Positions 7,201-26,942 of a stretch of DNA of 64,000 bases are shown piece by piece. Position 1 is the stretch's first letter. Each line of letters opens with the position of its first letter. The notes under the pieces were generated by a model. It did not search any database, was not told the origin of the DNA, and saw nothing but the letters and a program-made list of their open reading frames with translations. The position numbers were made by a program, and so were the translations under genes. The stretch comes from a bacterium (lineage in GTDB: Bacteria > Planctomycetota > Planctomycetia > Planctomycetales > Planctomycetaceae): positions 1 through 64,000 of the forward strand of contig WGME01000010.1 in NCBI GenBank assembly GCA_016125225.1. The letters are read 5' to 3'.

Positions 7201-7803
7201 ATGACAGAACAACCTGATGCCGCATGGCTCAAGGCATGGCACGGCGAGTGGGACAACCAAACTGTCTCGGCTTTGGGGTATGGTGATCCCCCCGTGATTA
7301 CCTCCAGTCTAACAGCGACGGGCCGGAAGGGAATTGCGTTTTCGTATCTCATCACGGCGGATAACAGCCCCACCAGTTTTGATGCCACGGGCCTGCCAGC
7401 GGGCCTCAGTGTGAATACCTCGACAGGAGCCATCACGGGCACGGCGACGGTGAGCAGCACCAATAACGTCACTATCTCGGCCATGAACGCCTTCGGCACT
7501 GACAGCGAAACCCTTGTCTTGGAAATGAAGTCCGATACCGAAGTCCCTGTCATCGCCGACTACTCCGCTGGTCAGGAGTTCGAGTATCAACCCACAACAA
7601 CGTATATCACTGTCACGGGCGAAGACCCGCTCGCATGGTCCGCCAGCGACCTGCCGGATGGACTCGCCATCAACAGCAGCACGGGACGCATCACGGGCAC
7701 ATTGCCGGTCCCCGGCACCTATCATTTCACCGTGACCGCCACGACAGAACTGGAAGTCGAGGGGTCACGACTCTTTTCGCTGAGTGTCCGACAAACGGAT
7801 TGA
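7201..7803 (+). CDS. Phage protein with two putative Ig (He_PIG) domains
   Basis: 200 residues, with an AAGGAG-type SD just upstream. After about 35 residues there are two tandem Ig-like repeats. Each has the hallmark core: ATGLPAGLSVNTSTGAITGT (about 62-81) and ASDLPDGLAINSSTGRITGT (about 149-168). This is the putative Ig (He_PIG/cadherin-like) family. Such domains decorate phage heads or tails and give weak binding to cell-surface sugars. It sits at the head-tail gene boundary, so either capsid or tail display is possible. Confidence 0.8.
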   Translation: MTEQPDAAWLKAWHGEWDNQTVSALGYGDPPVITSSLTATGRKGIAFSYLITADNSPTSFDATGLPAGLSVNTSTGAITGTATVSSTNNVTISAMNAFGTDSETLVLEMKSDTEVPVIADYSAGQEFEYQPTTTYITVTGEDPLAWSASDLPDGLAINSSTGRITGTLPVPGTYHFTVTATTELEVEGSRLFSLSVRQTD

Positions 7804-7821
7804 GCCAACTCTACATAGGGT

Positions 7822-10533
7822 ATGACCACCGTTACCCATGATTTTACCCCGACCGAGGACCGCAGTGTGTTGGCGGGGGCCTCCACCAATTGGGAAGGGG
7901 AGTATGAACTCACCCTGAAAGTCGGGGACATCAGCCAAGGCCCCGAAGCCTACATGCGGTGGTTACTGGACATCGAGAAGGGGCGGACGATCACCAGTGC
8001 CACGCTGACGCTCAAGTCAGCCACCGTTTTGGCGAGCAAGTCAGGAACGTTGCGGCTCAACTTCCGGTTCCTCGACCCCAATCTCGACAATCCCGACTGG
8101 GAAGCGGACGATGCCGACTTCGCTGGCTGGTTCTATGAGAATCCGCAGAGTTCGAGAGCCATCAGTAACGGGAACCCCGGCAGCGAGACGGTCTTTACCA
8201 TCAATGTCACAGGTTCGGTGCAGGCATTGGTCAATCGCACCCACTGGGGCGCAGGCCAACACGCCATCTGTCGGATTTATCTGGATGGCTCGACGTATGG
8301 GGTCGGGGAAGTTTTTCCATTCTATTCGTCCGACAGTTCTTCCAGCCCTGAACTCTCCATCGAGTTCGAGATCAGGGACACCACCGATATTGGTTCTGGT
8401 GGAGCGGCTGCTGGCGGCACGGCACTGGTGGGCCTCAACAAGTCCCAGCCGATCATGGCGGCAGGCGTGCAGGCAGGTGGCTCCGCTCTGGCTTTTGTTT
8501 CCCGAGACGAAACGGCGACGGGTGGTCTGGAGATCGAGGGTGTCGCTATTCATCACACGGAAATTGCCGTGGGTGGGGGTGTCACCCTCTCTGGCTCGGC
8601 GCACCTCATGGGGGTGCAGGAGGGAGCGGCTACGGTTTCCGGTCAGTCGGGGGGCTCCTGTCTGGGGGGCAAACTCATTCGGGTGCGGGTCTCGCCCGGC
8701 TCGGGTCTGATTCTTGGTCCCTATCAACCTTTCGCTCAATCGGAGATGACGGTCTCGGCGGTCTACGCTGAACTTCTGAATCCCACGATTGAAGCGGCAG
8801 CAGTCGTCACCGTTCATGCCGAAGTTTTGTATGCCGCATCCGCCACGGTCACGGCCATGGGGGAAGTCTCGATCCTGTCGGGAGAGATCGTCCCCATCGC
8901 AGCCACGATCACGGGGACCAGTCTGGCCTCCGTTCGTGGTGGCAAGGTGTATTCCGTCGTCGGGAGTGGTGGAGTTCTCTTGGCAGGGGCGACTCTCCCC
9001 CACCGACGCATTCAGATATCTGCCACCGTTACAATTTTTGGAACAGCGGAAGTTCAGGCCATAGGTCTCTACGACCAGACCAGTTCTCTCAGTGGGAATG
9101 CCACTGGTGTCGTGATCGCTATGGTAATACATCGCCCCAGCGTAACGATCACGAGTCTAAGCACCGTCACCGTTGCCGCTCAGTTAAATGCAGCGGTAAG
9201 AGTGTCGGCGGCAGTCGCAGCCAGTTCTGGAATGCAAGGCTTTGGCGGGTATCTGTTGGACGGTGCCGCCGATGTGGTGGGATCAGCTTCGTTCGTGGCC
9301 TCGTTGAGCAAATGGCAAAGCGTGGCCATCACGCTGGAAGCCCATTCCACGGAACAGTGCCTTACCAGCCGCACTCGCAATACCAGCAGTGTGATTCCAA
9401 CTTTTGTAACGCAGAATATCGTGGTCCAGACCACCCGAAACTCATCCGCCACGCTGTCGGTGCGTGCGGAACTTGCTGTGAATTCGACATTTCTGATAAC
9501 GGCGGCAGCTTCTACAAACTCGAATTCGGCCCTATCGGTCATGGCGTTCCGTGCGGCACCCGCTGCCGCCATGATCCTGACCAGTTCGGATTGCTCGGCC
9601 ATTGTTGCACGCATCACCCCAGCATCGGCTACGGTAGTCGGATTGTCTGAGGCCGAGAGTTTTGCCAGTGCGATCTATGCCGGGTCGGCCAGTGTTACAA
9701 GTTTTGTATGGTTCACAGCCCATGCCCGAGCGGATTTCCAGACAGGAGCCACGATCATAGGTCAGAGCGGCACCACGGCGACCAGTGTCTATCGACCGAC
9801 GCCATTCCCTTCCACCCTTTACAATTGGTTGGAACCGCAGTTGTCATGTCCCCTGTTTCCACTGCTTCTGCCCCGGAATGTCACTCTGCCAGCGATCACC
9901 TATGGCCGACGCTCCACCGAGTTTCTCTATTATCTCGACCAGCCGAGTTCCCAGCGGATCACGGTGCTGGGGTTCGACATCTTCGCCCGCTCCCAAGCGG
10001 AGGCCATTGATCTCTCGGAAGAACTCCTGACCGCCCTCCACGATTATCGGGGTGACATCGGCAACACGCTGGTTTATCACTCGGAAGCGATCACACTCGA
10101 TGATGCGTTGTTCGAGGATGCGGGTGGCAATCATCAAGGTGTCATTCGTAGCGTCGATTTTGAGATTATCCATAATCATCGTCGGGATGTCACCGAGACG
10201 ATTTGGACCACGGATCAGGACTTGCGGACCTACCTGCAAGAGTTCACCGCCCGACAGGTGACGATGGTTCCCGATCTGTCCGACAGCCGCCCCCTCATCA
10301 CCTTGACCCGTAGCGGCACGGGCCTCGAAACCTACATCGGCAATGCTCGTCCTTTCACCGACGCCGACTACACCATTCGCATCGACAGCACCAGCTACGC
10401 CACCACGTTGGCTCTGGCTGACACGTTGCGCCGCAGCTTGGGAAATCCCGTCGATGATGAGTCCGACACTTTCGATTTCGATGCGGAGAACCGGCCTCTT
10501 TATCGCACGGAACTAAGCCTCAGTTTTTCGTAG
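7822..10533 (+). CDS. Large chimeric virion protein with C-terminal tail-terminator-like domains
   Basis: 903 residues. Residues 1-190 are a beta-rich domain (TFTINVTGSVQALVNR..., SSSSPELSIEFEI) like the DNRLRE/carbohydrate-binding type. About 190-655 is a Ser/Ala/Val/Thr-rich repetitive beta region (repeats like SATVTI..., AAVVTVHAEVLYA). About 660-790 (LYNWLEPQLSCPLFPLLLPRN to GVIRSVDFEIIHNHRR) resembles DUF3168-type tail terminators. About 815-903 looks like a second, shorter domain of similar layout. In siphoviruses the tail terminator gene lies exactly here, between gp10-like and major tail protein. TACATA lies four bases before ATG 7822. No domain call could be checked. Confidence 0.7.
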   Translation: MTTVTHDFTPTEDRSVLAGASTNWEGEYELTLKVGDISQGPEAYMRWLLDIEKGRTITSATLTLKSATVLASKSGTLRLNFRFLDPNLDNPDWEADDADFAGWFYENPQSSRAISNGNPGSETVFTINVTGSVQALVNRTHWGAGQHAICRIYLDGSTYGVGEVFPFYSSDSSSSPELSIEFEIRDTTDIGSGGAAAGGTALVGLNKSQPIMAAGVQAGGSALAFVSRDETATGGLEIEGVAIHHTEIAVGGGVTLSGSAHLMGVQEGAATVSGQSGGSCLGGKLIRVRVSPGSGLILGPYQPFAQSEMTVSAVYAELLNPTIEAAAVVTVHAEVLYAASATVTAMGEVSILSGEIVPIAATITGTSLASVRGGKVYSVVGSGGVLLAGATLPHRRIQISATVTIFGTAEVQAIGLYDQTSSLSGNATGVVIAMVIHRPSVTITSLSTVTVAAQLNAAVRVSAAVAASSGMQGFGGYLLDGAADVVGSASFVASLSKWQSVAITLEAHSTEQCLTSRTRNTSSVIPTFVTQNIVVQTTRNSSATLSVRAELAVNSTFLITAAASTNSNSALSVMAFRAAPAAAMILTSSDCSAIVARITPASATVVGLSEAESFASAIYAGSASVTSFVWFTAHARADFQTGATIIGQSGTTATSVYRPTPFPSTLYNWLEPQLSCPLFPLLLPRNVTLPAITYGRRSTEFLYYLDQPSSQRITVLGFDIFARSQAEAIDLSEELLTALHDYRGDIGNTLVYHSEAITLDDALFEDAGGNHQGVIRSVDFEIIHNHRRDVTETIWTTDQDLRTYLQEFTARQVTMVPDLSDSRPLITLTRSGTGLETYIGNARPFTDADYTIRIDSTSYATTLALADTLRRSLGNPVDDESDTFDFDAENRPLYRTELSLSFS
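9029..9709. repeat. Three intragenic copies of the 15-bp dyad
   Basis: Copies lie at 9029-9043 (TTACAA-TTT-TTGGAA), 9395-9409 (TTCCAA-CTT-TTGTAA) and 9695-9709 (TTACAA-GTT-TTGTAT), each 11 of 12 arm matches to TTACAANNNTTGTAA. They fall in different reading-frame contexts (VTIF, PTFVT, VTSFV), so shared protein repeats do not fully explain them. Confidence 0.4.
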
Positions 10534-16059: not shown

Positions 16060-17124
16060 TCAAGGATGAGAAGTTGACACATCCACCCACCCACTCGATG
16101 TGTTCCACCAGAGTCGTCCAACCGACTGACGCAAAACATAGGCAATCTCTGGCAAAGGTTTGTCGCAACCAGACACCACGACAGTAATCTTCTCTGCCTT
16201 ATTCCCGAACAGGTCTGATAGCGCCCCAAAATATGCCTTCGAGGAGCGATTCTTATATTCATCAAGCGAAGCACACACTCGATTACCTGTTGATAGAATG
16301 ACAATCTCCTCTGCGAGAGACGCAGCATCAGCGATAATCGCCGCCCCTAACTTCTCATAGAGAACACCACCCGGCGCAATTGCAATTGGAGTTAAGAACG
16401 AGGTTTTGAGCGGCCCATTCGTCCGTGTGAAGAGTGCCTTCAGTGCATCTAATGCGTCTTGGTCTGCTTGAGGTATCAGCCAGCCTGCACAATCATGATC
16501 GAATTCGCTGCCGCAGAATGGGTAAATCTGTAGTCGTGACCTAGATTCGGAATGCAGGAGCGGCAAATGAAAAACTGAACTGGTCGTATAAATGACTGAC
16601 CCTGATGGGGCCGCTTTCTCCAGATACCATGCCAGAGGCAGCACCATAGAGCTTGCTTGTATGAATACGTTCTGCCGTTGGCCTCGCTCAACAAACCACT
16701 TCTCCGTGACGTATTTAGCGACTTCACCTTTGTCGGCACAGTCGATATTGAGTCGGGTCAGAAATGATCCTTGAGGGATCAGGAATGCAGGGTGTTGCCG
16801 TCCTGCATTATTGTTGCAGAGCGTATCCATCGAATTCTGCAAGTTCTTCAAGCACTCTTGCTGCACTCCAAGTTGCGCCAGAAACTCGTCGAATCTAGGG
16901 TCTTCAATTGATCTGGGCTGGTGATTGCCATTCAATCCGACGAGCGGGACCATTTCATCGACATTTTTTCCCAACTTGATGACAACTGCCGACATCGAAT
17001 CGATAGCCATCTCTAGCTTTTCGACAGTACGTTGAAGTCGATCTACCTCTTCTCGAAGAGGCATCACCACATCAACTTGCTTCGGCTTGGGTCGTGAATT
17101 CTGCTCCGGTTGCCCAGTTGCCAT
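16060..17124 (-). CDS. Unknown accessory protein, coiled coil plus Rossmann-like region
   Basis: 354 residues from ATG 17124, with a strong SD (AGGAGG). Residues 18-60 are a predicted coiled coil (LREEVDRLQRTVEKLEMAID). The rest alternates strands and helices: VFIQASSMVLPLAWYLEK (about 151-168), VIYTTSSVFHLPLL (about 176-189), ISLTPIAIAPGGVLYEKLGAAIIADAASLAEEIVILSTG-like segments (about 250-290). This resembles, weakly, the ISOCOT/DeoR sensor fold. No virion or replication motif is seen, and the independent RBS suggests a moron-type accessory gene. Function unknown. Confidence 0.7.
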   Translation of the reverse strand: MATGQPEQNSRPKPKQVDVVMPLREEVDRLQRTVEKLEMAIDSMSAVVIKLGKNVDEMVPLVGLNGNHQPRSIEDPRFDEFLAQLGVQQECLKNLQNSMDTLCNNNAGRQHPAFLIPQGSFLTRLNIDCADKGEVAKYVTEKWFVERGQRQNVFIQASSMVLPLAWYLEKAAPSGSVIYTTSSVFHLPLLHSESRSRLQIYPFCGSEFDHDCAGWLIPQADQDALDALKALFTRTNGPLKTSFLTPIAIAPGGVLYEKLGAAIIADAASLAEEIVILSTGNRVCASLDEYKNRSSKAYFGALSDLFGNKAEKITVVVSGCDKPLPEIAYVLRQSVGRLWWNTSSGWVDVSTSHP

Positions 17125-17259
17125 CGTCTATCCTCCTTGTGTCGAGCGTTACATCAATGAGAAGACATGCAAAGTGTAGTCGGGCATCAGGCGATAATGC
17201 AAAGAAATTCCGCACAAGTTAATCTGGGATGGGTGGCTGGTGTGGGTGTTTTCTGGGTG

Positions 17260-18123
17260 TCACTCGTCTTCCTGACGCAGACCGAAGTAATCCGCTACTT
17301 GCTGGTGTAGTTCTGACTTCTCGGAATTCCACGCCAGCAGCCCATTGGGATCGACTCGAACGTCTTCTGACGGGCGATAGTCAGCCTCATCGATCCATCT
17401 GTTCCGTTCGGCATAGAGTCGGTTCTTGCGTGTTCCATGATACAGATGGACCACATCTCCAGAGACATACCCGATATTACCCCGCACTCGCTGATATTCT
17501 GGCCATGCCCATTCCAGAAACTCCTGTCTCATCCGGGTGGGTGTCTGCTGGAGCAACCACGAGTTCCATTCGCCGGACCATGCGATCAATTGGAAAGCAT
17601 CGCCCGAACCCACAACAGCTTTGTCATACAAGCCGTGTGGGATCACCTCACGACGCATTCCCCATGCTCCACCCGGCCTTCTGATATTGATTGTCTTGCC
17701 TTGCTCGTCGTTGGTTTTGGCCCAACCGTAATCTCTTGTTACGAATTCACACCGGGGGCCAGTATCAATGACTCCCTCGAATAGCTGGACCACAGCAAAT
17801 TGATCGAGTTGTTCTTCCGTCTCTCGATACCAGTTGGGATTCAGGAACAGGAAGTCCGCATCGATCCAAGCCACCTTGTCGATCTCGTGGGGAAGAGATT
17901 CGATGGCGACGTTCAGCAGGCGTTCTTTCTGCCAGAGAACGTGTTCCTTGCCACCTCGGATGTGAATGGCGTCTGAAATCTCGAAAGGTCGATCATCGAA
18001 GGCCAGTTCCACTGTCACGATGGGATGGTCGAGTTCGCTACGGAATCGCCAGTAGTTCTTGAGAAGGTTCCGATACCCGCACGGGTTGAAATAGCATGTG
18101 ACCAGACCTAGAGCCATAGTCAT
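17260..18123 (-). CDS. GT-A-like glycosyltransferase
   Basis: 287 residues. The opening strand LGLVTCYFNP, the sugar-nucleotide region and the DxD motif in VAWIDADFLFLNP (Asp88-Ala-Asp90) indicate a GT-A fold. A His-rich C-terminal segment follows (VVHLYHGTRKNR). Phages use such enzymes to glycosylate DNA or the host surface, and the acceptor here cannot be told. Start at 18123 has CACATA four bases upstream on the mRNA, the only - strand copy of the TACATA-type start signature. A 15-bp dyad lies 15-29 bp upstream. Confidence 0.75.
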   Translation of the reverse strand: MTMALGLVTCYFNPCGYRNLLKNYWRFRSELDHPIVTVELAFDDRPFEISDAIHIRGGKEHVLWQKERLLNVAIESLPHEIDKVAWIDADFLFLNPNWYRETEEQLDQFAVVQLFEGVIDTGPRCEFVTRDYGWAKTNDEQGKTINIRRPGGAWGMRREVIPHGLYDKAVVGSGDAFQLIAWSGEWNSWLLQQTPTRMRQEFLEWAWPEYQRVRGNIGYVSGDVVHLYHGTRKNRLYAERNRWIDEADYRPSEDVRVDPNGLLAWNSEKSELHQQVADYFGLRQEDE

Positions 18124-18137
18124 TATTTATGTGGTCG

Positions 18138-18152
18138 TTACAGTTTTTGTAT
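18138..18152. promoter_or_regulatory. 15-bp dyad copy at the end of the small - strand gene
   Basis: TTACAG-TTT-TTGTAT matches 10 of 12 arm positions. It overlaps the stop codon of the 123-residue gene and lies just upstream of the glycosyltransferase start. Confidence 0.35.
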
Positions 18153-18509
18153 CTCCCAGCCAAGCATCTGGCAGACTTCCTCTCTGGTCATTTCCTTGCG
18201 CTGTGGTTTGCGTGAATGCAAGTCCTCGCCTGCCAAGTAGCGATCAACAACAGTTGGCTCAAGGTGGATGTTGTTCTGCTCACGATATTCCTGTAAGGAT
18301 ATCGCCATCCCTAATTCGATAAGCTGGTGCTTGATTTCATCTGCCGTAACGCTGGGATTCATCAACCGCCACGACTCGACAAACCGGAACAACTCCCAAC
18401 GCAACTTGTGCAGAGGATGCGTTGGTTGCTCGGCCTTGATCCTCGCACGATATGCCTTCTGACGCTCGGCATTGGTCATGGCGAACCTGCCATTTGGCTT
18501 CCGTCCCAT
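18138..18509 (-). CDS. Unknown small protein downstream of the divergent switch
   Basis: 123 residues, basic. After MGRKPNGRFAM comes TNAERQKAYRARIKA, a start seen in many small phage proteins, then helical segments and TREEVCQMLGWEIQKL at the end. GGAG lies 3 bases before ATG. As the first gene of the left-going transcript from the operator region, it could be a regulator, but no HTH is certain. Confidence 0.65.
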   Translation of the reverse strand: MGRKPNGRFAMTNAERQKAYRARIKAEQPTHPLHKLRWELFRFVESWRLMNPSVTADEIKHQLIELGMAISLQEYREQNNIHLEPTVVDRYLAGEDLHSRKPQRKEMTREEVCQMLGWEIQKL

Positions 18510-18524
18510 GTCTCCAGTCCTTGA

Positions 18525-18553
18525 TATCGTAACGACGATTGTTCGTTACGATA
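18525..18553. promoter_or_regulatory. Perfect 11-bp inverted repeat in the leftward leader
   Basis: TATCGTAACGA (18525-18535) and TCGTTACGATA (18543-18553) are separated by 7 bp. It lies between the leftward promoter and the 123-residue gene. Either an operator or a leader hairpin. Confidence 0.5.
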
Positions 18554-18567
18554 ATGGTTCATCCGAG

Positions 18568-18710
18568 TTTGTGTCGCAAACATTATATGCGGGTCGGAAG
18601 AATGCGTCAGCCTGATTTTGTGTCACATAATCGGCGTGTAATATTTGGTGTAAACCAATGACAAAGTTGTGGTGTAAAGCAAAGATTTGAGACAGATTTT
18701 GTGTCACAAA
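18568..18710. promoter_or_regulatory. Three TTTGTGTCACAAA operators of the divergent switch
   Basis: Copies are at 18568-18580 (TTTGTGTCGCAAA), 18617-18629 (TTTGTGTCACATA) and 18698-18710 (TTTGTGTCACAAA, perfect dyad around a central T). The first covers the leftward start site, the second is next to the leftward -35, the third abuts the rightward -35. Confidence 0.7.
18582..18610 (-). promoter_or_regulatory. Leftward sigma70-type promoter
   Basis: On the - strand, CTGACG (18605-18610), a 17-bp spacer and TATAAT (18582-18587). It drives the 123-residue gene, and perhaps the glycosyltransferase and fibre block. Confidence 0.6.
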
Positions 18711-18713
18711 TTT

Positions 18714-18742
18714 TTGCACAATAAAACCGAACCGCATATAAT
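18714..18742 (+). promoter_or_regulatory. Rightward sigma70-type promoter
   Basis: TTGCAC (18714-18719), a 17-bp spacer and TATAAT (18737-18742). Transcription should start near 18749, at the foot of the first leader hairpin. Confidence 0.75.
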
Positions 18743-18747
18743 ACGTC

Positions 18748-18850
18748 CATCAAGGAACGGATGCCTTGATGAATGAAATCAAAACGGCGACCCGTCTCCC
18801 CAAAAGCGTCAAGGCATCCACCTTACGGGAGACGGGTCGCTTCGTTTTTC
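18748..18850 (+). ncRNA. Structured leader or small RNA with alternative pairing
   Basis: Hairpin A: CATCAAGG (18748-18755) with CCTTGATG (18764-18771). Hairpin B: a perfect 14-bp stem, 18787-18800 with 18827-18840, followed by TTCGTTTTTC. The loop of B holds TCAAGGCATCC (18809-18819), the exact complement of GGATGCCTTGA (18759-18769) in hairpin A. The RNA is about 100 nt if it ends at the T run. Confidence 0.55.
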
Positions 18851-18880
18851 TGCGCTGTAGGCGGAAGAACTGTGATAACA

Positions 18881-18921
18881 AAAAAATGGTCTCGCCCCAA
18901 CCGAAATTGAAGACGAGACCA
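18881..18921 (-). terminator. Hairpin with T run on the - strand
   Basis: TGGTCTCG (18887-18894) pairs with CGAGACCA (18914-18921). On the - strand seven T follow, so it would stop leftward transcription coming from inside the replication gene. Confidence 0.45.
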
Positions 18922-18937
18922 CTATCATACACTGCCA

Positions 18938-20814
18938 TGTTGACAGAATATAATATAACCGCCGACGCAAAAAACTGCAAACACGAGCCAGATATTTCTG
19001 ACCGTGACAAGGATCGCAAAGAGTTAGCGGCGGCGACGTTCTCGGCGTTTCTGCCCTATATCTCCAACAAGTATTGGGGAATCAACAAAAAACACGCTAT
19101 CACCAAGTCGGTCCACGTTGCATTCCACGAGTGGTGCGAAGCTAGAGACCGAGGCGTCGAGAAGCCCAGAGTCATCATCAGAAACAAAGATGGCTCTCCG
19201 TGGAAGAATGTAGATGGAGAAACCATCTACTTCAATTACTACCATCACTGGAAATCAAGGCTCTGGTCAGAAAGGAATGTTGAGCGTGCCAACGCTGGTC
19301 TTGACTGGGATTACTTCCAGTGCTGTGCCCGTGCTGGCAAGAAGATGGCTTACATTGATGCAGACGCCCATGAGCGTTGGCAGGATGATCTCGATGATGC
19401 TATTACCCTGCTCAAAGAGTTGTTCAAGGACTCGCCGTTCTGGCGATACTCTCCGGGTGGTTACAACGGCTGGCTGAAAATCGGCGATGCCCCATCCGTG
19501 GAAGAATACAACGCAGGTCTCGCTCGGCTAGACCAAGTGCTGAAAGACACGTTTGCCCAACGTCGCATCAAGACAAGCATCGAAATCAAAGGGCGGTCAG
19601 CTTGGAAGGATGACATCGAAACCTTCGATGACCGCCGTTCTCATTTGGCAAAACTCCCTTACTACAACTATGTCGATGCCGGTGCCCGCAAAGATGCCGA
19701 CGACTGCTGGAACCAGAGACGACTCGACGAGTTCATCGCCAAACCCGACATCTATTGGAAGTCGCTGATGGCATTCATAGAGCAATTGGAAAAGATGCTC
19801 GACCGAGAGAAGGTGGATGAAGGCAGGCGGTATCTGGAATCGTTGAAGAGCGGTGGAAAGGGTGTTGCCAAGAAAGCACCTGTTCTAACACCTGTCGCCA
19901 GTGAACCAGAAGTCACTCCACAGTCAGTGTCCCTTCGGGACAAAAGTGCCCCGCTGGGGCGGGGCACAGATGATGACTTGGGGCTGACGCCGGGGTCTTC
20001 CCGAACTCTCGAACAGATTCGCCAGATCACAGATGCTTTCGAGCGTAATCGTGAGTTTGCACTTTACGCCGCTCGATTGGCACGACGCCCTTTGACGGCT
20101 GACGAGTTGCTGGAGCAAGATCGTTTGCATCACATCCACAATGGCGAGTGGGAAGATGGTCTCGCTAACCGCAAACGTCGGTATCAGGAGATCGCTCCCT
20201 TTGTTGCTCGTAATTTTGACGCAAGTAAATGTGGCAAGAAAACTCAGCGTCCGGTTCTCGACAAGAACATCAAGTATTGGAAGGCCAGAGCGCATCTCTT
20301 TCCTTCCGTGGCTCTTGGGTATGTTGGCAAGCGAGCAGAGAAGATCGAGCGTTCTGTTCTGATAGCTCTGACTGCGATCATCCAAACTGCCAGTCAACCA
20401 GATGGTGACTGTCCTCGGGATTCGATTCAGGGCTGGTGGGAAGAACTTGCTTCAGAAGGTCTGATCGAGTCTTGGGACAAGAACATCTACACCGCAGCAC
20501 GAAGTATTCTCGTGCGGTATGGGTTGGTCAAAGTGGATCACCACCGCTACCGCTATGTGCCTGATGCCAAAGGTTGGTGCAAGGGTATCTGGATCACTGG
20601 GAAGCATGAAGAACTGGTGGGCGAACAGAACTATACCTTCCCCACGTCCGATCCTTCTTCTTTCTCTCCGTTCTCTTGCCGTTGCATAATGGTTATGGCG
20701 CAGCCATCGACGGGAAAAGTGCCGAATCGCCCCCCACGACCGCCCCCAAGAGGCCAACCGCCCCCAATCGTGCGGTTCATCCCAAGTTTCGACGAACAAA
20801 TCTCATGGTTTTGA
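18938..20814 (+). CDS. Phage replication protein, possibly AEP primase-like
   Basis: About 625 residues from ATG 18938. The frame is open back to 18766, but that part holds two hairpins and a T run, so the later start is preferred. No SD is seen. A possible archaeo-eukaryotic primase core has AYIDADAHERW (Asp-x-Asp near residue 140), YSPGGYNGWLKI (about 170) and SIEIKGRSAW (about 213). The C-terminal part (IERSVLIALTAIIQTAS..., IYTAARSILVRYGLVKVDHHRYRYV, about 475-550) looks like a winged helix. It follows the switch promoter, the usual place of replication genes. Family assignment is tentative; replication role is likely from position. Confidence 0.65.
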
Positions 20815-20843
20815 CCACGGGAAACGTGGGAGATATGCGACCA

Positions 20844-20858
20844 ATACAATTTTTGCAC
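20844..20858. promoter_or_regulatory. 15-bp dyad copy
   Basis: ATACAA-TTT-TTGCAC, 9 of 12 arm matches, flanked by CCA and TGG, just after the replication gene. Confidence 0.3.
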
Positions 20859-20905
20859 TGGCAGGACGCATGGAGACCACACGGCGAAGCCCCAAGTCAC
20901 AATTT

Positions 20906-20928
20906 GTAGGCTGCCACCGGCAGCCTAC
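20906..20928 (+). terminator. Hairpin after the replication gene
   Basis: GTAGGCTGCC (20906-20915) pairs with GGCAGCCTAC (20919-20928) with a 3-nt loop. No T run follows, so termination is uncertain. It may instead stabilise or process the mRNA. Confidence 0.4.
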
Positions 20929-21006
20929 TGGCTATCCCGAAGGGATGGCCCTGAATCGAAGAAACCTCATGCAAGGAGAGACCACCAACAGGAAGGATAA
21001 CCACAA

Positions 21007-21255
21007 ATGAAAATGCCCTACGGCAAACACAAGGGAGAAGAAATCCACACGATACCCAAAGGGTATCTCAACTGGATGCTCGACAACATCACCGATCTCG
21101 GTCCCGATCTCAAACAAGCGGTTGAAGCCGGACTTCAAGGCAAGGAATACACGCCACCAACACGAGAGCAACGAGTCGATGCCGCCAGACAGGACATGAC
21201 AGCACGACTGCGAGCCAGAGAAACAGAACGGATTCTGTTTCGAGTGGTGGCGTAG
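21007..21255 (+). CDS. DUF3820-like small protein
   Basis: 82 residues. The start MKMPYGKHKGEEIHTIPKGYLNWMLDN matches the (M)PFGKYKG...IPxxYLxW core of DUF3820, a small phage/bacterial family of unclear role often near replication or exonuclease genes. The rest is helical. A G-rich SD-like GGAAGG lies about 15 bases upstream, rather far. Confidence 0.75.
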   Translation: MKMPYGKHKGEEIHTIPKGYLNWMLDNITDLGPDLKQAVEAGLQGKEYTPPTREQRVDAARQDMTARLRARETERILFRVVA

Positions 21256-21717: not shown

Positions 21718-22500
21718 CTACAAACACGCACGCAACCGACGACAACCCAACGCAGCGAACTCGGGCACGATCTCAAATCCCAGATAATGCCGCCCCAACG
21801 CCGACGCCATCTTCAAGGTGGTCCCGGCCCCGGCAAAGGGATCAAACACGAGATTGCTCTCCCGACTGAATGAATAGATCAAATCTCGGGCCAACAGTTC
21901 CGGCATCGTGGCGGGATGGCCTTCCCTGACGAACTTCTCAGTGGCGTTCGTGGTGCCGCAGTGATACCGCCAGACAGGTCCACGCACCCGGTATTCCGGC
22001 ATCTCCTTCAGTTCCGACACCTTTCGACAGTCTTCCTTGCCATATTTCGTATAGCGTTTGATGTCGCCGAAGGTCTTGTTGGGAATGTCTCGGATCACGT
22101 TGATGGTTCGGGGACGCCCCTTCGATAGCACATAGACATACTGTAGAGAACCATATTGTTCACTCCGTCCGTGGTTGCCGTTCGTGGTTTCGGTAATCAA
22201 CGTCTTGTGACAGGTGAACCCCACGCCATCCACGAAATACATCAACTGCCGACGTGAAGTCAGACTCTCGGCAAATGCCTTGATCTGCTCGCCATAGTGC
22301 CAGCACACCACGCCACCATCACAGGTGATCCTATAGAGTTCGGCAGCGATCACACAGAACTTCTCCCAAGACAAACGATTGCCCTTGAAAGAACGCATGT
22401 TGTCCCATGGTGGGCTAGTCACCGTCAGATGGACGGAATCCGAGGGCAGGGATTTCATGCCTGAGACACAATCCGAACAGATCAACTGGTTCAGCAACAT
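21718..22500 (-). CDS. DNA methyltransferase (SPPW type, N4-C or N6-A)
   Basis: 260 residues from ATG 22500, with SD AAGGAG seven bases upstream. The catalytic motif IV TSPPW lies at residues 28-32 and the SAM-binding motif DPFAGAGTTLKMA near residues 219-231. This is the permuted beta order, motif IV before motif I. SPPW is usual for N4-cytosine enzymes but also occurs in N6-adenine ones. No restriction enzyme is adjacent, so a solitary modification enzyme that guards phage DNA is the likely role. Target sequence unknown. Confidence 0.88.
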   Translation of the reverse strand: MLLNQLICSDCVSGMKSLPSDSVHLTVTSPPWDNMRSFKGNRLSWEKFCVIAAELYRITCDGGVVCWHYGEQIKAFAESLTSRRQLMYFVDGVGFTCHKTLITETTNGNHGRSEQYGSLQYVYVLSKGRPRTINVIRDIPNKTFGDIKRYTKYGKEDCRKVSELKEMPEYRVRGPVWRYHCGTTNATEKFVREGHPATMPELLARDLIYSFSRESNLVFDPFAGAGTTLKMASALGRHYLGFEIVPEFAALGCRRLRACL

Positions 22501-22553
22501 GGGGAACTCCTTAAAGGTGTGAGACAAGCAACGGGGGCGCACCAGCACCCCCG

Positions 22554-22568
22554 TTACATAAATTGGAA
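22554..22568. promoter_or_regulatory. 15-bp dyad copy
   Basis: TTACAT-AAA-TTGGAA, 10 of 12 arm matches, in the gap between two - strand genes. Confidence 0.3.
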
Positions 22569-22572
22569 GGAA

Positions 22573-23151
22573 CTACACTGCGACGGAATCCGTCAGTGAC
22601 GCTCGCAGACGTGCCAATTCCCCTTCAATCAGGTCCAACTGTTCGACGGCGGCGTCTCGGTCGTCTTCGTTCACTACGACCTTGGCCAACATCTGGACGA
22701 CCTTCACGAGACGACCGATCCCCGTAATCACGATTTCAGGTTCCGGCTGGGTGTCTTCTTCCACCTTGCCCAGCAATCGATCCGCCGTCTCACGGATCAG
22801 GCGAGCCGTGATCGGTTCCCCTGAATCCACTACAGCCTTCCAGACCGTCTTCTGGGGTTCCGCATGACGCAGGCGGACCAGTTCCCGTGCCTGTCCTTCA
22901 TTCGTGGGCAGGACGCTGAACCCGTGCAGGTTCAACAGCACCCGTGCTGCACCCTTGTAGCGAGTCACATCGGCGGGACTCATGCCAAATTCCATATCAC
23001 AGAAGTCGGCCATCGACTTGGCCGATTCTTTCCAGATTTTGCGACGGTCGATCTCCCAGACAGCGAAAGCGGTCTCGAAGAAGGCTTCCTGTCCTCGCTT
23101 GACAAGTGTGATAAGTTGCTTGTCGGTCTTGTTGGCGAGTGCGTTCGTCAT
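22573..23151 (-). CDS. Unknown phage/plasmid protein next to the methyltransferase
   Basis: 192 residues, with SD GAGGAG eight bases before ATG. The segment FCDMEFGMSPADVTRYKGAARVL...SVLPTNEGQARELVRLRHAEPQKTVWKAVVDSGEPITARLIRE (about 50-125) recalls a family of phage and plasmid proteins found with methyltransferases and ParB-like genes: an FG.S..... segment, then LPTNE.QAR.L. An HTH-like fold is plausible. The C-terminal 50 residues are helical. It precedes the methyltransferase on the same strand by 72 bp. Role unknown. Confidence 0.7.
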   Translation of the reverse strand: MTNALANKTDKQLITLVKRGQEAFFETAFAVWEIDRRKIWKESAKSMADFCDMEFGMSPADVTRYKGAARVLLNLHGFSVLPTNEGQARELVRLRHAEPQKTVWKAVVDSGEPITARLIRETADRLLGKVEEDTQPEPEIVITGIGRLVKVVQMLAKVVVNEDDRDAAVEQLDLIEGELARLRASLTDSVAV

Positions 23152-23305
23152 GGGCGTTCTCCTCTTTACTCAGGACTGGTTCGCCGGTCACGCTGACCGG
23201 CACGCCCTACTAGCGGGTGCCTCACAAGCTCACTTCCTGAGCCGTTTCACGGCCCAGAGTGGTAAAACACTGGAGAGAGACTGGCCGGACTGGTAAAAAA
23301 GTGGA
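23152..23305. promoter_or_regulatory. Divergent promoter region with hairpin and direct repeats
   Basis: The gap lies between divergent genes. It holds a perfect 8-bp hairpin, GCCGGTCA (23183-23190) with TGACCGGC (23194-23201). Just before the HTH gene there are two imperfect repeats of the type CTGGTAAAA..GTGG (about 23258-23303). No clear -35/-10 pair was found. Confidence 0.4.
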
Positions 23306-23824
23306 ATGAACACTCCCGGCAAAAAACCGACGAAAGCCGACTGGTTGAAACTTCACCGGAAACGAAAGCTCGACCAGTCCGCTGCCACCTTCCGAGACAA
23401 CCTGCACAAGCTGGCCGAGCGAAAATCCTGCCCGGATGAGAACTCACTGGCAAAGCGGCTGGGCTGGGTCAGGGAGAAGAAGAAGTGGCTGCGTCGGTTA
23501 TGGAAGAGCGGACTGGTCCGGCCCAATGCCAAGACCGCTGATGATCTCGACCAATTGTCAAAGTTCTTCGATCTTAAAGACACCGGCCAGTTCTGGAACA
23601 CATCGTTGTTCCCTCCCAAACGGGAATACCACCGCCTGCGGCTCCCACAGGGAAGCGTGGATGTTCCTGTCCGCACCTACGGCGAGATCGAGACCGAGAA
23701 ACTGCTGAACGAGATCGAACAAGAGTTCGAGAACTTGGGTATGCAGATCGTCGATCTGATGGCGGCAAGTTTGCAACGAATCAAAGCGAAGTTGATGGAT
23801 ACCGGCGAGCCTCAACAAGATTAG
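23306..23824 (+). CDS. HTH-containing protein, candidate phage regulator
   Basis: 172 residues. Residues 25-72 read as a helix-turn-helix of the XRE type: LAKRLGWVREKKKWLRRLW..., then a conserved-looking KTADDLDQLSKFFDL. The second half is helical and rich in Glu, which could dimerise (YGEIETEKLLNEIEQEFENLGMQIVDLM). It is the best candidate in the window for binding one of the operator sets. Two repeats lie in its own upstream region, which would fit autoregulation. Not shown. Confidence 0.6.
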   Translation: MNTPGKKPTKADWLKLHRKRKLDQSAATFRDNLHKLAERKSCPDENSLAKRLGWVREKKKWLRRLWKSGLVRPNAKTADDLDQLSKFFDLKDTGQFWNTSLFPPKREYHRLRLPQGSVDVPVRTYGEIETEKLLNEIEQEFENLGMQIVDLMAASLQRIKAKLMDTGEPQQD

Positions 23825-23829
23825 TTGCC

Positions 23830-23851
23830 TGCCCCACTAACTAGGGGCATG
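23830..23851 (+). promoter_or_regulatory. Hairpin covering the SD region of the ParB-like gene
   Basis: TGCCCC (23830-23835) pairs with GGGGCA (23844-23849) across an 8-nt loop. The second arm contains the GGGG SD-like run and the A of the ATG at 23849-23851. Confidence 0.45.
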
Positions 23852-24340
23852 AAAGACCGAATCCAATCCCTCACCCGCATTCCAGCAACCAAGCTGGTTC
23901 CACACCCTAAAAACCACCGCACCCACAGCGACCACCAGAAGCGTGCCCTGCAAGGTCTCCTCGACGAGATCGGCTGGGCCGATGCTCTGCTCGTTCGTGA
24001 AACACCCGCTGGCTACCAGATATTGGACGGGCATCTACGGCAGACCATGACCACGGAGGCTGTCCCCTGTCTCGTGGTCGATCTCACGGACGCTGAGGCC
24101 GATCTGTTGTTGGTTACTCACGACCATATCACTGGTTTAGCGGGGATCGACCAAGCCAAGCTCGAAGACCTGCTGTCCGAGCTTTCCTGTCAGAACGCCG
24201 AGGTGCAAGCCCTGCTGGATGAACTCTCCAGCCAGACAGCGGAGATGCTGCTCGATGAGGGTAAGGAATATGACGAAAGCTGTGCGGATGGTGTGCAGAG
24301 CGTGACCTGTCCCAAATGTGGGGAGATCATCCCCCTATGA
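23849..24340 (+). CDS. ParB/sulfiredoxin-like protein associated with a methyltransferase
   Basis: 163 residues from ATG 23849. The N-terminus, [41 protein letters not shown], and the phosphoryl-binding motif GHLR (residues 61-64) are the ParB-N/Srx fold. The C-terminal tail has one CxxC (Cys154, Cys157). Such proteins are common in phage and plasmids beside DNA methyltransferases. Whether it is a nuclease, CTPase or DNA-binding partner is open. It overlaps the next gene by ATGA. Confidence 0.82.
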
Positions 24341-25311
24341 CATTCTCAGTCATCAGCACATTTTCTGGTGGAGGGGGTTCCTCGCTCGGATATCAGATGG
24401 CAGGCGGCAAGGTTCTGCTTGCTGTGGAATTCGACAACCACGCTGCCAGCACCTACAGAGCCAACTTCCCCAGCACACCTTTATATCAGGGCGACATCGC
24501 CACACTGACGGGCGAGGAGTGTTGTCGTCTGGCTGGTATCCAGCCCCGTGAACTCGACATCTTTGATGGAAGTCCACCCTGCCAAGCATTCAGCACCGCT
24601 GGGCGACGTATCTTCCATGACAGCCGGAACCAGTTGTTCAAGGAATATGTTCGCTTGCTGAGATACATCCAACCACGAGCGTTTATCATGGAAAATGTCT
24701 CGGGCATGATTAAAGGCCGAATGCGATTGATCTTTTCGGAATGCCTCAGAGAACTGAAAGCCAGCGGGTATCAGGTCAAAGCCCGTCTCCTCAACGCTGC
24801 CTGTTATGGCGTCCCTCAAGCCAGAAAGAGAATGATCTTCTTGGGGATCAGAAACGACCTGCAACTGGAGCCAATCTTTCCGAAACCAAACGGACCTATC
24901 GTTTCGATCATGCAGGCCATCGAGGGAGCCGATACGAGTGGTGTTCCTGAACTCAATGACCGCTATGGCCTGCTTTACGACCGAGTGCCGTTGGGTGGGA
25001 ATGCGAGCGATGTGATTGGCACAGGATTCAACAGTTGTGTCAGACCGCATCCTCGTAAGCCCTGTTGCACGCTGCCCAAGACTCAGACAGGCCGAGGGTT
25101 CGCCACGATCTGTCATCCGTATGAGAAGCGTGGCCTGAGTATCGGAGAGGCCAAACGGATTCAGACCTTCCCAGATTCTTACCAATTGCTCGGGTCTTAC
25201 TCCGAGCAGTTCGCTCGCATTGGAAACAGCGTGCCACCGCTGCTCATGTCCCAGATTGCAGCCCAACTGCAACAGACGATCTTTGGCCAGCCAAAACCGG
25301 CAACTCCCTGA
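24337..25311 (+). CDS. dcm: DNA (cytosine-5-)-methyltransferase
   Basis: 325 residues from ATG 24337, translationally coupled (ATGA) to the ParB-like gene. C5-MTase motifs are in order: I ([11 protein letters not shown], residues 9-19), IV with the catalytic Cys (SPPCQAFS, Cys82), VI (MENVSGM, Glu119-Asn-Val), VIII (QARKRMI, about 161), and IX/X at the end ([15 protein letters not shown]). It should methylate cytosine at C5 in an unknown site. With the SPPW enzyme, the phage has two modification activities. Confidence 0.92.
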
Positions 25312-26870: not shown

Positions 26871-26942
26871 CGGTATGCACCATTTCATGCACCAAATGTA
26901 TGCGGGATTGTATGCACCCTGATGTATGCAAAAATGTATGCA
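26871..26942. repeat. Six iterated NTGTATGCA repeats, probable att arm
   Basis: 9-bp units start at 26871, 26883, 26896, 26908, 26922 and 26934 (spacing 12-14 bp). The last four match (A/T)TGTATGC(A) closely, the first two are weaker. Lying 40-110 bp from the tRNA-Pro 3' end, they look like arm-type sites of a tyrosine integrase. No core duplication can be tested here. Confidence 0.55.

Follow-up and report, generated by a model that had tools for sequence, protein, structure and literature searches.

The operator regions OR and OL of phage lambda combine divergent promoters with three similar, odd-centred dyads, one of which lies over a start site, and genes for CI and Cro flank the operators. 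Replication genes can be controlled by a different logic. Those of P4 are kept off by premature termination, for which the account in PMC4825925 describes a CI RNA that pairs with sequences both upstream and downstream. ColE2 encodes a primase-type initiator whose expression is controlled via the 5' untranslated leader by an antisense RNA, as described in PMC5304414, and its Rep protein is reported to unwind DNA despite having no NTPase domain (PMC5862659). The same source describes the motif I acids of the AEP superfamily as catalytic and the motif II His as family specific and replaceable. It places PrimPol-PV1-type proteins almost only in integrated elements and prophages, where some have winged-helix domains that might recognise an origin (PMC5862659).

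The region analysed here is flanked by a block of leftward genes (18509 down to 14501) and by a rightward gene. Since its rightward promoter is followed by an unusually folded leader and a probable replication gene, the region resembles a replication control panel more than a copy of the lambda switch. Searches of open-access papers gave no title on this control region or its leader RNA. The region belongs to the first 64 kb of contig C32 (154,709 bases) of a 6.35-Mb genome; this stretch, analysed at its full length, is called the window below. The first 27 kb of the window are the right part of a prophage, which contains the large terminase, portal, major head protein, head-tail adaptor and tape-measure families and also encodes DNA methyltransferases and a ParB-like protein. 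The prophage ends at a tRNA-Pro gene; 49 bp of this gene, the attachment core, recur on contig C40 with 94% identity. An integrase-like gene with a weak XerD-type match (E 0.06) directly follows the core on C40. Short TGTATGCA / TGCATACA repeats beside both cores (window 26871-26942; L012 2765-2872 on C40) resemble integrase arm sites, thus supporting the prophage ends.

On the C40 side, leftward cargo genes are located between the integrase-like and small-terminase-like genes (16576-21131, L011/L012). They encode P-loop-like (571 aa), 138-aa, 464-aa peptidase-like and 217-aa proteins and, named by eye, look like a defence-type insert.

Table 1. Features of the divergent promoter region, the rightward leader and the genes discussed in the text (positions in the window)
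Feature	Position	Strand	Remarks
First leftward gene, 123-aa orphan protein	18138-18509	-	Regulator candidate
11-bp inverted repeat in the leftward leader	18525-18553	.	Arms 18525-18535/18543-18553
Putative operator O1, TTTGTGTCGCAAA	18568-18580	.	1 mismatch; centre at ~+1 of the leftward promoter
Leftward promoter (PL), CTGACG-17-TATAAT	18582-18610	-	-35 18605-18610, -10 18582-18587; 10/12; predicted start ~18575
Putative operator O2, TTTGTGTCACATA	18617-18629	.	1 mismatch; centre at ~-48 of the leftward start
Class-2 dyad ATTTGGTGTAAACCAAT	18643-18659	.	Type common to upstream regions of the G151, G213 and G174 primase-like genes
Degenerate class-2 dyad TTGTGGTGTAAAGCAAA	18667-18683	.	No match to the class-2 pattern; overlaps the 19-mer that best matches the G151 upstream region
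Putative operator O3, TTTGTGTCACAAA	18698-18710	.	Exact; centre at ~-45 of the rightward start
Rightward promoter (PR)	18714-18742	+	Weak -35, perfect -10 TATAAT at 18737-18742; predicted start ~18749
Shared -10 block CCGAACCGCATATAAT	18727-18742	+	Also at PL, 18582-18597, - strand, 15/16
Structured leader of the rightward transcript	18749-18936	+	-71 kcal/mol, z -6.28 for 18749-18937
Stem A, 5' arm GGATGCCTTGA	18759-18769	+	Complementary to 18809-18819
Stem B, 5' arm GCGACCCGTCTCCC	18787-18800	+	Pairs with 18827-18840
Stem A, 3' arm TCAAGGCATCC	18809-18819	+	Within the loop of stem B
Stem B, 3' arm GGGAGACGGGTCGC then TTCGTTTTTC	18827-18850	+	Terminator-like
625-aa primase-like (DxDxH) protein	18937-20814	+	Start 18937 backed by alignment with a 62% identical relative
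Antisense promoter-like site TTTGCA-18-TATATT	18952-18981	-	9/12; transcript would cross the leader
172-aa protein, divergent Cro/CI-type HTH inferred via relatives	23306-23824	+	Regulator candidate

The first-pass annotation, made from the DNA letters and open reading frames, had described a lambda-like switch with two back-to-back promoters. The leftward one, CTGACG-17-TATAAT, is present as described. In the rightward TTGCAC-17-TATAAT, the -10 is perfect, but TTGCAC (18714-18719) matches TTGACA at only three of six positions, and a promoter scan gives TTTGCA or TGCACA (10/12 each) as the -35 instead. Across the 3-kb region, promoter-like matches (5 versus 2.7, sd 1.9) do not clearly exceed chance, and neither do terminator-like ones. 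The sequence that the two -10 elements had been said to share turned out to be longer, a block of the form CCGAnCCGCATATAAT (15/16) that is common to the two promoters and, at up to three mismatches, has no further match in the window; two or more matches are contained in 4 of 100 shuffles. The G+C content is 41% in 18510-18768 versus 56.5% for the window. The 11-bp inverted repeat reported for the leftward leader (TATCGTAACGA...TCGTTACGATA) was also found, directly upstream of the leftward gene start and with arms that are unique in the window at one mismatch. Operator and RNA hairpin are both conceivable roles for it; the leftward leader as a whole (76 nt) shows no unusual folding (z -0.92).

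Three copies of a 13-bp dyad had been placed over the leftward start, beside the leftward -35 and against the rightward -35, and they are there, with one, one and no mismatch in O1, O2 and O3. O2 is contained in a 19-bp dyad with one mismatch. A non-overlapping triple at up to one mismatch did not arise in any of 500 dinucleotide shuffles of the region; of 498 overlapping 256-bp segments of the real sequence, one has it, which is the O1-O3 place itself. At up to three mismatches, the 13-mer is not enriched window-wide (17 versus 13.8 expected; 25 of 100 shuffles reach 17), so that it is the cluster at up to one mismatch, and not a window-wide motif count, that makes O1-O3 exceptional. The degenerate form TTTGTGTCRCAWA, searched as an exact pattern, has five copies in the whole 6.35-Mb genome. 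Three are O1-O3; the remaining two each stand alone on contigs other than C32, one within an ORF and one just beyond an ORF end. With starts set 7 bp past each -10, only O1 overlaps a predicted start. Because O2 and O3 are centred at ~-48 and ~-45 of their promoters, activator contact fits as well as repression. In a DNA search of 297 genomes of the class, the region was matched in its own genome only.

A related prophage in G103 (L054) has head, tail and ParB-like genes in common with the window prophage. It shows a similar layout (L054 9350-14125), consisting of a leftward block, a 118-bp divergent gap and rightward genes. No O1-O3-like dyads were found at the equivalent place, only a two-copy 14-nt direct repeat with one copy inside a gene. 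Its leftward 138-aa protein had seemed similar to the 141-aa protein of the window, but BLASTP did not bear this out (E 7.7). Two further genomes, G104 (L057/L058) and G026 (L055/L056), entered a tblastn comparison only.

The rightward frame is open from 18766, and relatives of its product align only from ~18937. The closest of these, in G213, is identical at 62% (367 of 594 aligned positions) and aligns from residue 7 of the 18937 version. Apart from the 625-aa protein itself, there was no match in 149 near genomes at E 1e-3, and none in pattern-based searches of viral contigs and genome contigs or by tblastn of phage records. When 170 genomes of the order were searched at E up to 1, 37 of them, counting the own genome, contained matches, from which those at E < 1e-3 were kept (two in G284 and one each in G206, G151, G159 and G279); the rest (E 0.014 to 0.81) were dropped. 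A profile of seven proteins matched in 11 of 397 genomes of the class, again including the own genome, and added G213, G157, G111, G179 and G174. We thus compared 12 loci, the window and 11 relatives in 10 other genomes, some of which share only the C-terminal part of the primase-like gene. Serine recombinase-like genes, named by eye, are located near 4 of the 11 relatives (G284 C50, G206, G279 and G111).

The protein contains a DxDxH motif, a form typical of archaeo-eukaryotic primases, which is invariant in all seven aligned sequences and present by eye in the five further relatives. The motif I DxD acids of the AEP superfamily are thus there. At the likely motif II position, assigned by eye, an Asn (SPGGYNGW) is kept in 7/7 aligned sequences, and G174 has a His-bearing STNGVGIHGYPV at that place, likewise by eye. 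No Pfam, PHROG, NCBIfam or PDB match naming a primase and no AEP family or structure profile match was obtained for the 625-aa protein, and Pfam named none of the six relatives scanned a primase. As neither the profile libraries nor PDB give the protein a name, we call it primase-like and do not file it as an AEP member. The missing profile match lowers the case that it is an AEP, not the case that it works like one.

A comparison of the 3' ends of the primase-like genes (window 20700-20780; L073, L074, L075, L076, L077, L092 and L093) yielded three observations. A proline tail ends 5 of the 12 proteins (GKPPP, GKQPP, QRPPP, NRPPP and SKPPP), and RP(P/L)PRGQPPP occurs near the C-terminal end in the window, G159 and G157. 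The DNA motif ACAGGGAAGGTACG is close to the stop codon in G284 (14/14, +60) and G159 (13/14, -62) and weaker in G206 and G157 (11 each); at G279 and the remaining loci it does not exceed chance, and the window lacks it. This motif is possibly an origin, because ColE2-like origins sit there.

Between the rightward promoter and this gene is a leader that was absent from the first-pass annotation and whose predicted folding was reached by none of 200 shuffles. It contains two perfect inverted repeats, stems A (11 bp) and B (14 bp), which are interleaved, and stem B is followed by T-rich TTCGTTTTT. Stem B is not in the list of our terminator scan, in which loops were limited to 3-8 bases. The CCTTGAT end of the stem A 5' arm can also pair with ATCAAGG at 18749-18755, and the minimum-energy nested fold consists of B and a small hairpin at 18749-18770 in place of A. 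The folding program cannot show pseudoknots, and A together with B is a possible one. The folded leader and terminator-like stem predicted for the rightward transcript also speak against the lambda-like reading of the first-pass annotation. In a coding test of 18769-18939, 2.6% of true-frame segments score as low and 2.4% of wrong-frame segments as high. This result is ambiguous, and part of the leader could therefore be coding.

The order A-B-A'-B' with a T-rich tail was found at 3 of the 12 loci (the window, G159 and G157), where 0, 0 and 1 of 200 shuffles, respectively, reach the score; the other nine loci had no interleaved stems at the thresholds used. The G159 and G157 leaders are alike by eye. 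Because the stems were not in register in a MAFFT alignment of the three leaders, the interleaving test was used instead of a covariation count. In an Rfam search, the window had no gathering-level match besides two tRNAs; weak matches in 18400-19100 to two snoRNA families and Pxr were far under the cut-offs and were rejected. On the opposite strand, terminator-like sites are listed at 18773-18746, 18798-18781 and 18759-18744 in addition to the promoter-like site in Table 1. The antisense promoter- and terminator-like counts across the leader are not clearly above those in shuffles.

The leaders of G159 (L076 6828-6931) and G157 (L093, minus strand, 7780-7927) are predicted to pair with the start-codon region of the primase-like gene. 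According to these folding models, they could also hide the start codon.

A second class of dyads, also absent from the first-pass annotation, lies between O2 and O3. The sites were described by the pattern TTTG-TGTAMA-CAA, which allows 0-3 free bases on each side. This pattern was derived from sites already seen, and the remaining 222 kb, in which it had no match, served as the control. In the 233,011 bp of the 12 loci, this TTTGG-TGTAAA-CCAA type gave seven matches at six distinct sites, all within 900 bp upstream of a primase-like gene. These are distributed over four loci, with one site in the window, three in G151, one in G213 (on the other strand) and one in G174, and the pattern scan found none at the other eight. 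The best 19-mer match between the window region and the 802-bp G151 upstream region (17/19; 0 of 300 shuffles) is at the poorer copy at 18667. An earlier search for GTAA-loop hairpins, which found three upstream of primase-like genes (two in G151 and one in G213) and five elsewhere and missed the window and G174 dyads, was superseded by this pattern.

Since the class-2 sites are confined to upstream regions of primase-like genes, we infer that this class belongs to that gene. O-type sites behave differently. Within 16 kb around the G151 gene, the 10-mer ATTTTGTGTC, common to O2 and O3, has two copies, which both fall in the 802-bp upstream region. It is the only one of nine ten-mers repeated in the window region that recurs so at G151. 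G206 has one copy, 2.9 kb inside or after the gene start. A relaxed O-type pattern gave 12 matches around the 12 loci, of which 5 are away from upstream regions, and no O-type site was found at G213, the closest protein relative. O1-O3 would belong mostly to this prophage.

As judged from the sequence, the chances appear about even that a prophage replication gene is controlled from this AT-rich region, in which putative operators for a phage regulator are combined with RNA attenuation in a logic comparable to that of P4 and ColE2; perhaps it is also an origin. A phage-encoded dimer would bind O1-O3. Bound at O3, it would touch RNA polymerase at the weak rightward -35, and at O2 it would do so at the leftward promoter, which would be shut when O1 is filled. 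The class-2 dyads would be sites for the replication protein or a partner and serve in autoregulation, as an origin or in both. Stem B and its T-rich tail would stop rightward transcription in the leader; stem A pairing, an antisense RNA or another factor would allow the polymerase to pass to the replication gene at 18937. If this is true, two layers, operators and a folded leader, govern the replication gene of a prophage outside the usual model hosts, and not a CI/Cro switch of the simple kind. Other primase-like loci, a few in each case, show the leader layout or the class-2 dyad again, which makes both directly testable, and either could help to find origins and control RNAs in integrated elements.

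A wider proposal starts from the leader. Its interleaved stems, possible pseudoknot and intrinsic terminator may form an RNA gate behind a protein-operated divergent promoter, reached independently of P4 and ColE2. Such a gate, in this tailed prophage and in at least two further loci with a related gene, would represent a new family of replication-control RNAs that travels with new primase-like initiators, some of them sharing the TTTGG-TGTAAA-CCAA dyads. We regard this proposal as tentative and rather unlikely. For the control region as read above, G213 is a main argument against generality: the ORF upstream of its gene is on the same strand, where the window has a divergent gene, and neither O-type sites nor interleaved stems were found there. 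The layout is therefore not a fixed part of the primase-like gene family; at the thresholds used, 9 of the 12 loci lack the interleaved stems, which is a further fact against generality.

The region might instead be mainly a replication origin, in which O1-O3 and the class-2 dyads are initiator repeats for the primase-like protein and promoter control is secondary, as autoregulation. The low G+C content, the repeated dyads adjoining a probable initiator gene, the restriction of the class-2 dyads to upstream regions of relatives among the loci scanned, and the presence of TCTTTGTTGTACAGCAAAGA in three copies, 80-100% alike, ahead of the G151 gene are all consistent with an origin. However, O-type sites are absent at G213 although its protein is 62% identical, and two-thirds of the loci (8/12) are without a class-2 site. 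Furthermore, ColE2-like Pseudomonas replicons, as described in PMC5304414, have their origin within rep or ~300 nt after it. O1-O3 are also registered to the promoters and unevenly spaced (49 and 81 bp), and we consider a region that is mainly an origin rather unlikely.

A lambda-like lysis-lysogeny switch requires a repressor, most likely the 172-aa or the 123-aa protein, that holds the replication gene off via O3 and sets the leftward promoter via O1 and O2. Both proteins are candidates for binding O1-O3. The divergent promoters do have three related operators between them, on or adjoining both promoters. The flanking genes, however, are not those of CI and Cro but those of the 123-aa orphan and the primase-like protein, neither of which (18138-18509, 18937-20814) matches an HTH repressor family. 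Only the basic N-terminal 25 residues of the 123-aa protein match anything, namely one viral contig and three PHROGs of unknown function (E < 0.01), and the protein was found in its own genome only among 198 genomes. The five leftward genes show no repressor family in the libraries tried (NCBIfam only for the 141-aa one).

The nearest HTH candidate from the operators begins at 23306. The first-pass annotation was literally right that no known CI/Cro gene lies beside the switch, but the 172-aa product of this gene is probably a divergent Cro/CI-type protein. No Pfam model matched its own sequence. Matches were found in 6 of 149 genomes, the own genome included, and the five relatives share FxxNL, W..R and GLxR positions with it; three of the six rows of the alignment match HTH_31, HTH_26 and HTH_3 each (best 1.7e-8). 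The shared positions and these rows support the assignment, and a LexA-like PDB chain, 2kpj, was matched at E 0.019. AlphaFold models were too poor to use for both the 123-aa (pLDDT 51.6) and the 172-aa (pLDDT 45.9) protein.

The 172-aa gene lies within a stretch (21718-25311) that contains N6/N4-type and C5-type methyltransferase genes with the ParB-like, 172-aa HTH and 192-aa orphan genes between them.

A divergent Cro/CI-type HTH protein encoded in the prophage thus favours the lambda-like switch, as do the three dyads. However, its gene is 4.6 kb off, past two leftward genes, and no O dyad was found near it in a scan of the prophage part of the window and a reading of its upstream region. 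In addition, O3 is upstream of the rightward -35 and not over the promoter. Resemblance to OR/OL extends to the divergent promoters, the three similar odd-centred dyads and the one dyad over a start site, and it is offset by the lack of CI or Cro on either side, by sites 49 and 81 bp apart, by a primase-like rightward gene and by a terminator-like leader. On this evidence, a switch of the lambda type is unlikely. Control of the promoters by a host regulator, such as a CRP/FNR-type protein acting at O3-like sites, is very improbable: the symmetric TGTG/CACA dyad loosely resembles CRP/FNR-type sites, but its 13-bp odd-centred spacing does not fit their consensus, and the genome has just two more copies of the degenerate form, each on its own, for which reason a host regulon of the dyad was rejected.

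Control of a replication gene by operators and RNA attenuation, the reading that we prefer, can be compared with three known systems. The primase-like protein resembles PrimPol-PV1 in its acidic motif I (DxD), its occurrence in integrated elements or prophages and, by eye, a winged-helix-like C-terminus, and it differs in having Asn for the usual motif II His and in matching none of the HMM families in the libraries searched. Compared with ColE2, neither Pfam nor PDB gave a Rep match, and the gene lies in a tailed-phage genome with a divergent promoter. An antisense promoter-like site (18981-18952, 9/12) and a terminator-like site (18773-18746) are predicted, not clearly above chance, so that ColE2-like antisense control of the rightward leader would be conceivable. 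We do not claim sequence kinship with P4, and all three complementary stretches are within ~70 nt here. As in P4, however, one sequence, GGATGCCTTGAT (18759-18770), is complementary to both an upstream stretch (ATCAAGG, 18749-18755) and a downstream one (the stem A 3' arm, 18809-18819), and this complementary set precedes a terminator-like stem and a replication-like gene.
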